From positions 186,001 to 250,000 of the forward strand of contig JAKLKO010000003.1 in assembly GCA_023150615.1 (NCBI GenBank): 64,000 nucleotides of DNA. The letters run 5' to 3'. A program made the translations under genes and the position numbers. The stretch is from Phycisphaerae bacterium (GTDB lineage Bacteria > Planctomycetota > Phycisphaerae > UBA1845 > UTPLA1). The notes below the pieces were generated by a model. That model searched no databases, was not told the origin of the DNA, and saw only the letters and a program-made list of their open reading frames with translations. Below are positions 55,024-59,604 of the stretch, piece by piece; positions within the stretch are counted from its first letter, which is position 1; every line of letters begins with the position of its first letter.

Positions 55024-55695
55024 GTGCACCAGACTCCGCACCGCATGAAGCACAGCGCCCGCCACGAGTTCGAGCGCTGGGCGCACACGTACGATCGCTC
55101 GATCCTGCAACGGCTGGTCTTTCAGCCGTCTTATCGGGCGTTTCTGACCGAACTGGTCCGCTGGCGGAGCGACGACCCGCGGCCGTTCGACATGCTCGAC
55201 GTCGGCTGCGGCACCGGCACGTGGCCGGCGATGGTTGCCGCGACCGAACTGCCCGTCGGGCGGCTCGTCGGGCTGGACTACGCCTACGCGATGTGCCGGC
55301 TGGCGCACGAAAAAGCCGCGGCGATCGACGACGCGGCGATCCAGTTCGTCAACGGCGATTCGGAGCACCTGCCGTTCGCCGATGCATCGTTCGACCTCGT
55401 GACGTGCAGCAACTCGTTCCACCACTACCCGCACCAGGGAGCGGTGGTGCGCGAGTTCCGCCGGCTGCTGCGGCCGGGCGGACGGCTCATGATCATTGAC
55501 GGTTTCCGCGACAACCTGATCGGCTGGATCGCCTTTGACGTGCTCGTGGCGCGGGCGGAGGGCGACGTGCATCACGCGCCGTGGTCGCTCATGCGGCGTT
55601 ACGCGCTGGAGGCGGGCTTTGGCCGCGTGGAACAGCGGAAGTTCGGTGTGCTCATCCCGCTGTTCATCACGGTCGCACACGTGGCGGAATTGTGA
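55024..55695 (+). CDS. SAM-dependent methyltransferase (Methyltransf_11 type)
   Basis: The 223-residue enzyme has a class I Rossmann methyltransferase core: FDMLDVGCGTGTWPAMVA (SAM loop), LVGLDYAYAM, NGDSEHLPFADASFDLVTCS, and LRPGGRLMIIDG. The substrate is unknown; UbiE/menaquinone-type and small-molecule methyltransferases share this core. The GTG at 55024 has GAGGAG upstream; an in-frame ATG at 55045 is also possible. A TAAGAT -10-like box (54957-54962) may drive it. Confidence 0.82.
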   Translation: MHQTPHRMKHSARHEFERWAHTYDRSILQRLVFQPSYRAFLTELVRWRSDDPRPFDMLDVGCGTGTWPAMVAATELPVGRLVGLDYAYAMCRLAHEKAAAIDDAAIQFVNGDSEHLPFADASFDLVTCSNSFHHYPHQGAVVREFRRLLRPGGRLMIIDGFRDNLIGWIAFDVLVARAEGDVHHAPWSLMRRYALEAGFGRVEQRKFGVLIPLFITVAHVAEL

Positions 55696-55763
55696 CACGT
55701 TCTGGAACCACCCGTTCCGCCGCCGCCGTCCGGGCGGGTAAGATCGTGCCGGAAGGTGCCGGT

Positions 55764-57014
55764 GTGCGCTCGGACAGCGACAAGATCGCGATGCTCATGA
55801 AGGTGCTCGAGGTCTCGCGCCGGCTCGGCGCGACGATCGACCTCGAGGAGTTGCTCGGCTTCATCGAGCAGGCCGCCCTCGCCGTGCTCGACTGCGAACG
55901 GGCTACCGTCTTCCTCTGGGACCGCAAGACCGACGAGTTGTACAGTCGGCTGGCCACCGGCGTCGGCGAGTTGCGCATCCCGGTCAACCGGGGCATCGCC
56001 GGGGAGGTGGCGCGGACCGGCTCGGTGGTCAACGTGCCGGACGCGTATCGCGATCCGCGGTTCAATCCCGAGATCGACCGCAAGACCGGCTTCGTCACGC
56101 GGAACATCCTCTCGTTTCCGCTCATCGGGCATGATCAGTTGACCGTCGGCGTGCTGCAGGTGCTCAACAAGCGCAGCGGCGGTTTCGACGATTGGGATGA
56201 GACGCTCGTGCGGACGTTTGGCGCGCAGGTCGGCGTGGCGCTCCAGCGGCAATTGCTGCTTGAGCAGTTCGCTGAGAAGCAGCGCATTGAGCACGATCTC
56301 GGCATCGCCCGGAACATCCAGCAGGCGCTGATCCCCGAGGCCCCGCCCGATGCCGCGGGCTTCGATATCGCCGGATGGAACAAGCCGGCCGACGAGACGG
56401 GCGGCGATTGCTACGACTTTTTGACCCTCGATCGCGGAGAGATCGCTGTCACGATCGCCGACGCAACCGGCCACGGCATCGGCCCGGCGCTGGTTATCGC
56501 CGAATGCCGCGCGCTGCTGCGGGCCTGTGCGTCGCTGACCGACTCGCTGCCGCGGATCGTCAAGCTCGTCAACAACCTGCTCTGCAACGACCTGCCGGAC
56601 AACCGCTTCGTGACGGCCTTCTTCGGACTACTTCGGCCGGCCGAAGCGCGACTGTCGTTCGTGTCGGCCGGGCACGGTCCGATCGTCTTCTTCAACGCCG
56701 AGCACGGCACGTTTGAGTCGCTGCCGATCAACGGCGTGCCGTTCGGCATCCTCGAAGGCGTCGAATACGACGATCCGATCGAGGTCGCATTTCGCGCCGG
56801 CGACATGTTGCTGCTGTTCACCGACGGGTTCTTCGAAGCGACCAACGCGCAGCGCGAACAGTTCGGCATGAACCGCGTGCAGCAGATCATCGCCGCGCAG
56901 CGCAGCGCGACTGCGTCGGAGTTGATCGAGCGCATCTACGCGGAGGTCGTCGCATTCTCGGGCGGCGCACCGCAGGCCGACGATCTGACCGCCGTGATCA
57001 TCCGCAAGCTCTGA
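55764..57014 (+). CDS. GAF-domain PPM-type serine phosphatase (RsbU/SpoIIE-like)
   Basis: The 416-residue protein has a GAF sensor domain (residues about 25-165: VSRRLGATIDLEELLGFIEQ, GVGELRIPVNRGIAGEVA) and a C-terminal PPM/PP2C phosphatase (about 180-416). The metal-binding block is ETGGDCYDFLTL, with ADATGHGIGPALV, FVTAFFGLL, SAGHGPIVF, LLLFTDGFFEA and DDLTAVIIRKL. RsbU-type phosphatases dephosphorylate anti-anti-sigma factors in partner-switching systems; no such partner is next to it. A GTG at 55764 with GGAAGG upstream is taken as the start; a TAAGAT box lies 19 bases before it. Confidence 0.88.
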   Translation: MRSDSDKIAMLMKVLEVSRRLGATIDLEELLGFIEQAALAVLDCERATVFLWDRKTDELYSRLATGVGELRIPVNRGIAGEVARTGSVVNVPDAYRDPRFNPEIDRKTGFVTRNILSFPLIGHDQLTVGVLQVLNKRSGGFDDWDETLVRTFGAQVGVALQRQLLLEQFAEKQRIEHDLGIARNIQQALIPEAPPDAAGFDIAGWNKPADETGGDCYDFLTLDRGEIAVTIADATGHGIGPALVIAECRALLRACASLTDSLPRIVKLVNNLLCNDLPDNRFVTAFFGLLRPAEARLSFVSAGHGPIVFFNAEHGTFESLPINGVPFGILEGVEYDDPIEVAFRAGDMLLLFTDGFFEATNAQREQFGMNRVQQIIAAQRSATASELIERIYAEVVAFSGGAPQADDLTAVIIRKL

Positions 57015-57036: not shown

Positions 57037-58812
57037 TCAGCGGACCTTCGCCACCACGACCGTCATGTCGTCCGTTTGCGGCGCCAGGCCCGCGAAGCGC
57101 CGGACGTCCCAGACGAGCTGGTTCGCCATCTGCGCCGCGGGGAGCGCTGCGTGCCGCCGAATCGACTCGTGCAGGCGCTGACGGCCGTACGAGCGCTCGT
57201 TGTAATCCATCGCTTCCAGCAGTCCGTCGGTCACGAAGACCAGGATGTCGCCGCCGCGAAGATCGAGCACGCCGCGCTCGTACGTCGCGCCCGGCTGAAT
57301 GCCGAGCACGGTTCCGCCGACGTCCAGCTCCCGAAGCGCGCCGTCGCGCAGCAGGATCGCGGGCTCGTGGCCGGCGTTGCAGAACGTGAATCGCCGCCCG
57401 TTCGAATCGAGCACGCCGTAGAACGCCGTGACAAACTCCTCCGGTCGCGTGTCGCGGCACAACTGGCGATTGACCTCGCTGATGATGCGGTCGATGTCGT
57501 AGATGCTCTTGGTGTGCGCCCGCAGCGATGCCTTCGCCGCCGCCATCAGCAGCGACGCCGGCACGCCCTTGCCCACGACGTCGGCGATCACGATTCCGAC
57601 GTGCTGCTCGGGCAACTCGATGAAATCGTAGAAGTCGCCGCCGAGGTCCGAGCTTGGCTGATACACGCAGCCGAACTCGATGTTCGGCGACCGCGGCGCC
57701 GACGCCGGCAGCATCCGCATCTGCACCTCGCCGGCCAGCCGCACCTGCCGCTCCAGCTCCGCGGCCTCCTCGGCCTCGCGGCGCATCCGCGCGTGGATGA
57801 TCGCCGCCGCGGCCTGCGCGGCGACGGCCCGAAGGAGCGAGACCTCCAGCGCGCTAAACGTCCGCTTGCCCTCGGCATAGACCCGCATGACGCCGATCGA
57901 GTGGCCGCGATAGGTCAGGCTCGTCACCAGCGCGCTGTGAATCCCCTCGTGGGCTGCTTCCTCCTTGTAGACGGTCCGCGGGTCGTTGGGCATGTCCTCG
58001 ACATACACGACCTTGCCGCTGAGCGCCTCGGCGTCGATCGGGCTGGCCGACACGTGCAGCGGGCCTTTGTTGAGGTAGTCGGCCGACAGGTTGTGCACGG
58101 CGGCGATCTTCAGCTCGTCCGTCTCTTCGTTCAGCAGGCGAATGCCAGCCGCCTTCACGTTGAGCACGTCCGTCACGAGCTTCGCCGCGAGGTTGAGCAC
58201 GGACTGCAGGTCTCGTTCGCCGGCGAGCAGGGTCGAGACGTGGTAGACGGTGCTCAACTCGCGGACCCGCTGCTGAAGCTCCCAGCCCTGGTAGCACAGC
58301 CGTGCCAGCGTCGTCGCGAACAACTGCGCGAAGCGAGTCGCGGCCGTCATCTCGCGATCGGACCAGTTCCGCAGGCCCCACGCCGCGCGCCGGAGGGTGT
58401 CGTAGTCGAGGTCAAAGCGCTCGGCGATCTCGCGCACCTGCTCGTCGGACAGCGGACGGCGCGGCCGATCACCGACGATGATCGCCCCGAGGCGCTGACC
58501 GCCGACCGTGATCGGCGCGGCGAATTGCGTCAGGCCGGCGTGGCACTCGCGCTGGCACGGCTCGCCGAGCGTACAGGCGGCGAGCGTCGCGGCGACGTGG
58601 CTCTCACGGCAGGCCTCGGCCGACGCGGGATGATCGAGCAGCCGACGGCAGAAGTCGTTCTCGTGGTGCGTCTCGGTGACGGGCGCGCCGCGCGCATCGC
58701 GGATGCTCGTCGCGACGCCCGTCAGCGCCGCGAAGGCGTTCTGCATCTCCCGCAGCGCGGACTCCTCCACGAATTCGGTCAGTGCGGGTACGGAATCAGC
58801 GGCCACGCTCAT
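57037..58812 (-). CDS. PocR-GAF-PPM phosphatase
   Basis: The 591-residue protein has a PocR-type sensory domain at the N-terminus (residues about 15-165). It contains the conserved cysteines of that family in CRRLLDHPASAEACRESH and LGEPCQRECHAGL, which may bind a ligand or metal. A GAF domain follows (about 190-345), then a PPM phosphatase (about 365-591) with SSDLGGDFYDFIEL, ADVVGKGVPASLLMAAAK, TAFYGVLDSNG, FVTDGLLEAMDYNE and DDMTVVVAKVR. It is a multi-input partner-switching phosphatase, convergent with another of the same class. A -10-like TACTAT lies about 25 bases before the ATG on the minus strand. Confidence 0.88.
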   Translation of the reverse strand: MSVAADSVPALTEFVEESALREMQNAFAALTGVATSIRDARGAPVTETHHENDFCRRLLDHPASAEACRESHVAATLAACTLGEPCQRECHAGLTQFAAPITVGGQRLGAIIVGDRPRRPLSDEQVREIAERFDLDYDTLRRAAWGLRNWSDREMTAATRFAQLFATTLARLCYQGWELQQRVRELSTVYHVSTLLAGERDLQSVLNLAAKLVTDVLNVKAAGIRLLNEETDELKIAAVHNLSADYLNKGPLHVSASPIDAEALSGKVVYVEDMPNDPRTVYKEEAAHEGIHSALVTSLTYRGHSIGVMRVYAEGKRTFSALEVSLLRAVAAQAAAAIIHARMRREAEEAAELERQVRLAGEVQMRMLPASAPRSPNIEFGCVYQPSSDLGGDFYDFIELPEQHVGIVIADVVGKGVPASLLMAAAKASLRAHTKSIYDIDRIISEVNRQLCRDTRPEEFVTAFYGVLDSNGRRFTFCNAGHEPAILLRDGALRELDVGGTVLGIQPGATYERGVLDLRGGDILVFVTDGLLEAMDYNERSYGRQRLHESIRRHAALPAAQMANQLVWDVRRFAGLAPQTDDMTVVVAKVR

Positions 58813-58884: not shown

Positions 58885-59604
58885 ATGAACCTCGTTCGCT
58901 ACGGCCGGCATCTCGGGCATCGTCCGCGCGAGGTCGTGCTGCTGCGCGGACTGCCGTGCATCTGGAGCCGTTGCAGCTTCTGCGACTACATCGCCGACAA
59001 CACGACCGACGTGGCCGAGATCCGCCGCGTCGCCGACGAGGCGCTGGCGCGCGTCACGGGCGAGTTCGGACGGCTGCAGGTCATCAACTCCGGCAGCATC
59101 CAAGAACTGCCGCCGCCGGTGTTGGAGCAAATCCGAACGCTGCTGGTCGAGCGTGGCATCGAAGAGTTCTACACCGAGTCCTACTGGGCCTATCGCAACT
59201 CGTTCGACGAGACGCGGCGCTTCTTCCGCGTTTCGAATCGCCGCGGCCGGACGGTCCGCACGCACCTGTTCCTCGGCGTCGAGACCTTTGACGACGGACT
59301 GCGCAACGGCATCCTCAACAAGTCCATGCACTGGTCCGGTCCGGACGACGTCGCGGCCGCGACGGATTCGATCTGCCTGATGATCGGCTTCCGCGGTCAG
59401 ACGCGCGACATCGTGCGGCGCGACATCGATCTGCTCCTGTCGAAGTTCCGCTACGGGATCATCAACCTGTTCTCGCCCAACACGAAGTCGGCGGGCCTGA
59501 TCGACGAAGAGATCAAGGCGTGGTTTGTCGAGGAGTTCGCCTGGCTGCGCGACGTCGAAAAGGTGGACGTGCTGCTGAACAACACTGACTTCGGCGTCGG
59601 CTGA
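58885..59604 (+). CDS. Radical-SAM-like Fe-S protein with CX4CX2C motif
   Basis: The 239-residue protein begins with a Lys/Arg-poor lead and then LRGLPCIWSRCSFCDYI. The three cysteines follow CX4CX2C rather than the usual radical-SAM CX3CX2C, but the position, the SFCDY ending and the barrel-like order (QVINSGSIQELPPPVLEQI, THLFLGVETFDDGLRNGILN, GIINLFSPNTKSAGLI) support the superfamily. Its substrate is unknown. No partner enzyme is adjacent; it precedes lpxD. The ATG follows a TAGTAT -10 box by seven bases. Confidence 0.65.
   Translation: MNLVRYGRHLGHRPREVVLLRGLPCIWSRCSFCDYIADNTTDVAEIRRVADEALARVTGEFGRLQVINSGSIQELPPPVLEQIRTLLVERGIEEFYTESYWAYRNSFDETRRFFRVSNRRGRTVRTHLFLGVETFDDGLRNGILNKSMHWSGPDDVAAATDSICLMIGFRGQTRDIVRRDIDLLLSKFRYGIINLFSPNTKSAGLIDEEIKAWFVEEFAWLRDVEKVDVLLNNTDFGVG

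Follow-up and report, generated by a model that had tools for sequence, protein, structure and literature searches.

A predicted queuine lyase, QueL, in planctomycete genomes that largely lack QueF and genuine QueC

We asked which reaction is likely to be catalysed by a small radical-SAM-like protein encoded in a 64,000-nucleotide stretch of a Phycisphaerae bacterium contig (hereafter the window), whose first two cluster-loop cysteines are separated by four residues. The canonical radical-SAM motif is CX3CX2C, and the initial annotation, which read the CX4CX2C spacing correctly (C25-IWSR-C30-SF-C33), proposed a possible variant enzyme with unknown substrate that keeps a barrel-like order. Our analysis retains the radical-SAM fold with its non-canonical spacing and replaces the rest of that proposal: the protein belongs to a known kind of enzyme and is well identified; what is somewhat new is its setting. 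Queuine lyase allows bacteria unable to synthesise a tRNA-modifying base to recycle it. Taken jointly, sequence and predicted structure make it very probable that the protein is QueL and that it turns queuine into preQ1.

The open reading frame begins with ATG and runs for 239 codons to a TGA stop, giving a 239-residue protein whose translation includes ...LRGLPCIWSRCSFCDYI... (Table 1). A PDB sequence search at E values up to 10 returned only one match, 6p78_A (E 3.2e-55, 190.8 bits, residues 3-239), the queuine lyase of Clostridium spiroforme, whose structure title records bound SAM and queuine. Together with homologues in 19 other genomes, this match marks the frame as a real gene. Identity extended to 95 of the 228 aligned residues. 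Of the 49 positions at which 28 QueL homologues do not vary, 46 carry the same residue in 6P78, a count taken over family-invariant residues of any role. An AlphaFold2 model built with 28 sequences (mean pLDDT 91.7, pTM 0.88) retrieved 6P78 as the top Foldseek match (E 1.7e-26, TM 0.92/0.95), followed by lipoyl synthase (E 1.6e-4), and VIA-align 2 superposed 228 residues at an rmsd of 1.3 with a Z of 33.4, against a Z of 13.9 for the second-ranked entry. The radical-SAM barrel of the predicted model superposes on 6P78, bearing out the barrel-like order noted earlier. The protein thereby shares with the QueL of C. spiroforme and Clostridioides difficile a full-length sequence match, the predicted fold, the CX4CX2C motif and the C-terminal TDFGVG, and differs from 6P78 in its sequence divergence and an 8-residue insertion. 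Counting against the assignment, identity to Bacillota homologues was only 43-48% in the alignment, and long branches separate the clades. By homology, the substrate would be queuine, cleaved to preQ1.

Table 1. Features of the queL locus, in window coordinates
Feature	Position	Strand	Basis
queL, predicted queuine lyase (radical SAM)	58885..59604	+	ORF, homology to 6P78, predicted fold
CX4CX2C motif CIWSRCSFC (C25-C30-C33), presumed [4Fe-4S] ligands	58957..58983	+	39/39 loci; also in 6P78
INSGS, residues 67-71, downstream of the cluster loop	59083..59097	+	28-sequence alignment
8-residue in-frame insertion, residues 118-125	59236..59259	+	Missing from 27 aligned homologues
C-terminal TDFGVG	59584..59601	+	28-sequence alignment, 6P78, model

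Four residues between the first two cysteines are characteristic of the family and not a sign of new chemistry. CX4CX2C was found in all 39 QueL loci examined, a count that includes the window's own locus and enters several genomes twice via two collections, and 6P78 shares it; within the QueL family the motif is neither due to chance nor unusual. For this reason the suggestion of an unknown substrate fails, the solved relative having been captured with SAM and queuine, and a false lead is removed. Two further motifs were conserved: I67, S69 and S71 of INSGS are invariant across 28 sequences, and the position of this segment suggests a SAM-binding role; G237-V238-G239 of TDFGVG are likewise invariant in the 28 sequences and shared with 6P78, with residues 237-239 modelled at pLDDT <50.

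Profile families, by which the initial annotation would have placed the protein, yielded little. Pfam, searched at E up to 1 with HMMER filters applied, returned no family; since Pfam gives this protein no family at all, the missing radical-SAM match is no evidence against the fold, which the 6P78 comparison settles. The sole NCBIfam match was TIGR01210, the archaeosine radical SAM protein RaSEA (26.8 bits, residues 17-151), raising the alternative of a RaSEA-like enzyme acting on a modified base within tRNA. RaSEA, too, is a radical-SAM enzyme that takes part in modifying tRNA with 7-deazaguanines, but the weak similarity falls far under the curated cut-off of 212.15 bits, on which score a RaSEA identity was rejected, and compares with 190.8 bits over residues 3-239 for 6P78. 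In addition, RaSEA acts on archaeal tRNA with ArcS (PMC11298593, available portion), whereas this genome's TGT belongs with the bacterial enzymes acting on tRNA-G34: it scores 476.8 bits on TIGR00430, whose cut-off is 306.75, and 128.5 bits on the archaeal TgtA model, where 350 is required. We regard the RaSEA-like alternative as extremely improbable and retain QueL. A weak fold match linked the QueL model to QueE (6NHL; E 9.1e-3, TM 0.40), a radical-SAM enzyme in the same pathway. QueE makes the base precursor in de novo preQ0 synthesis and, unlike QueL, does not salvage.

QueL was present in 20 of 61 searched genomes, the window's own included, with the other 19 copies at 59-76% identity; a separate contig scan gave 27 QueL loci, several from genomes already counted. 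The 20 genomes span three families (f1, f5 and f8), which also include QueF genomes lacking QueL. In a sample of 199 genomes from the phylum, QueL was detected in the window's own genome and as a weak match (25.5 bits, 33% identity) in one other, QueF exceeded its cut-off in 146, and Qng1 matched in 7, own genome counted. Planctomycete and Bacillota QueL formed separate clades with full support and long branches in a 28-sequence tree. A phage or mobile origin of queL was rejected: 50,697 phage records held no match at E 1e-3, none of 56 viral-contig stretches fitting a pattern was confirmed as a viral QueL copy, and the single plasmid-collection match, a Fusobacterium vincentii homologue at 36.3% identity, came from a 2.1-Mb record. 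Separately, one contig labelled Alphaproteobacteria (L022) carries a QueL that falls inside the Phycisphaerae clade and is probably mislabelled or misbinned. Neither QueL in planctomycetes nor a Qng1-QueL pairing was found among the titles and abstract openings listed from the open-access literature searched, and the string 'planctomycet' is absent from the available part of PMC11130926. These occurrences extend queuine lyase, as a predicted enzyme, from the Bacillota in which it has been characterised to environmental planctomycetes.

Comparison of gene content across the 61 genomes indicated that QueL on the one hand and QueC and QueF on the other replace one another almost completely. QueF, counted without matches under the Pfam cut-off (about 22-26 bits), was found in 1 of the 20 QueL genomes and in 38 of the 41 without QueL, and genuine QueC, defined by a 160-bit line chosen after the scores were seen, in 0 of 20 versus 39 of 41. 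The two QueL-less genomes scored as lacking genuine QueC are G056, where QueC is split into two adjoining pieces scoring 154.1 and 67.8 bits, and the 67%-complete G022; G030 has QueL and QueF together, though without genuine QueC. Qng1 (DUF2419) followed QueL, occurring in 19 of 20 QueL genomes (the lone exception is 75% complete) versus 7 of 41 others, the latter including one partial 33.9-bit match in G022. The association is not strict, and Qng1 also occurs independently of QueL: three genomes of the window's family (G006, G014 and G016) and two of another (G041 and G059) have Qng1 and QueF but no QueL. QPTR (17/20 versus 23/41) and nucleoside hydrolase (17/20 versus 13/41) were also tallied, and QueL genomes carried TGT in 20 of 20 cases and QueA in 19. 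As the 61 genomes are related, Fisher p-values overstate their independence and are indicative only; families missing from the VIA list were not counted as evidence.

The window's own genome (99.62% complete) conforms to this pattern, with TGT, QueA and a Qng1 that matches solved DUF2419 queuosine-salvage proteins (E 2.4e-62), and with neither QueF nor QPTR found. It also encodes a QueC-like protein that aligns along the whole Pfam QueC model (L082:3166-3807 (+), equivalent to G000:C9:41165-41806). We rejected this gene as QueC and treat it as a below-cut-off paralogue (99.1 bits against a TIGR00364 cut-off of 150.3); second QueC-family genes of similar score also occur in relatives that have genuine QueC.

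We then considered which base the TGTs of these genomes would accept. Queuine-inserting TGTs typically carry GG[LS][AS]G and the E. coli enzyme GGLAVG (PMC11570991, available portion), and Val233 of bacterial TGT would clash with the cyclopentene ring (PMC6165067, available portion). The pocket reads GGL[SA]VG in 19 of 20 QueL genomes (GGLSVG in the window's own) and GGLALG in the remaining one (G003), with the queuine-type pattern in 0 of 20. Such preQ1-type pockets suggest that these cells should need preQ1, which QueL would supply. The combination of QueL with a preQ1-type TGT, in a host without QueF and genuine QueC, is shared with C. spiroforme and C. difficile; it supports the QueL assignment without strictly defining it.

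Gene neighbourhoods set the planctomycete and Bacillota systems apart. In C. difficile, indirect salvage proceeds through QueL, which remakes preQ1 from queuine, QueK, which hydrolyses queuosine, and an ECF-type queuosine transporter (PMC11130926 and PMC11570991, available portions). All 12 Bacillota QueL loci adjoin a queuosine-salvage-type gene: 9 have a nucleoside hydrolase that matches the one in locus L032, 10 an ECF S-component-like protein that matches its L032 counterpart, and 2 a protein that matches the one in L034; each reference locus is included in its own tally. The names QueK, QueT and QrtT were first given to these neighbours by eye; profiles back a nucleoside hydrolase in L032 (PF01156) and QueT in L027 and L034 (PF06177). 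ECF models fell just under cut-off for the L032 ECF-like protein and gave no match for that of L030, and neither of these two is PF06177. By contrast, the available flanks of 15 planctomycete-clade loci (L013-L026 and L036, including the alphaproteobacterially labelled L022) held no QueK-type hydrolase, ECF protein, QueT, TGT, Qng1 or QueA; in L013, L018, L019, L021 and L024, at least one flank was under 5 kb. The planctomycete clade therefore differs from Bacillota QueL in having no QueK or ECF partner found beside the gene, and in co-occurring with Qng1. A general nucleoside hydrolase lies ~1.8 kb from QueL in G033 and G045 and ~8.2 kb away in G030, and in G003 a TGT lies ~10.6 kb away. The nucleoside hydrolase of the window's own genome was tried as QueK and not accepted, given its low identity (27.7-28.7%) to four compared QueL-adjacent Bacillota hydrolases and scores under every NCBIfam cut-off against which it was compared.

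The natural substrate of Qng1 is a nucleotide, queuosine 5'-monophosphate. Its co-occurrence with QueL suggests a Qng1-QueL-TGT-QueA salvage route, in which Qng1 would free queuine from that nucleotide, a step that we consider somewhat favoured. By analogy with the characterised relative, a [4Fe-4S] cluster on C25, C30 and C33 of QueL would then cleave SAM, and the resulting 5'-deoxyadenosyl radical would lead to loss of the cyclopentenediol of queuine and release of preQ1. PreQ1 regenerated in this way would be inserted into tRNA by the preQ1-type TGT, which should refuse queuine, and the rebuilding of queuosine would start with QueA. Given that QueF and genuine QueC are missing from the genome, flux through this route may stand in for de novo preQ1 synthesis, as judged from these two enzymes of the de novo pathway.

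The same observations bear on a second alternative, in which the planctomycete protein, though a lyase related to QueL, has changed substrate and cleaves, for example, queuosine as nucleoside or nucleotide, or a modified form of queuine, in place of free queuine. Such a shift would fit the separate planctomycete clade, the failure to find the Bacillota partner genes in the available flanks of any of the 15 loci, five of which have short flanks, and the presence of Qng1 with its nucleotide substrate. It sits poorly with the 46 of 49 family-invariant residues kept in 6P78, with the close superposition of the model on that structure, and with the TGTs, whose retained preQ1-type pocket calls for a free 7-deazaguanine base as the product. 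We judge a shifted substrate improbable, and free queuine stays the predicted substrate of this QueL.

How queuine or queuosine would enter these cells was approached through known importer families. PF06177 QueT was found in none of the 61 genomes, and three genomes with QueL, Qng1 and TGT (the window's own, G003 and G010) also have no QPTR. Judged from these family searches, the importer of these three would lie outside QPTR and PF06177; it may belong to the ECF S-component type seen beside Bacillota QueL, which is not PF06177 in the two loci tested (L032 and L030). These genomes offer a concrete place to seek another queuine/queuosine transporter, and PMC11130926 proposes ureide permease, MFS and AdipoR/haemolysin-III-related proteins as transporter families. 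A broader scenario, to which we give slightly less than even weight, is that this planctomycete order swapped QueC and QueF for an orphan QueL in members of three families, that a Qng1-QueL route replaces the QueK route of gut Bacillota, and that members without QPTR and PF06177 import by another, possibly new, carrier.

Other genes around planctomycete queL were recorded as observations in their own right. The window contained no preQ1 riboswitch or other Rfam RNA at the gathering threshold. Near QueL in G033, a galactokinase, a nucleoside hydrolase and mnmE (a tRNA-modification GTPase) lie in a row (L084:3314-6920), and the same order was seen by eye in G030 (L085). Upstream of queL, the window encodes two GAF-SpoIIE phosphatases (55581-57014 (+) and 57037-58812 (-)), the second of which has a PocR sensory domain and is divergent from queL; at two other loci (L014 and L015), a gene of similar appearance was seen by eye upstream of QueL.
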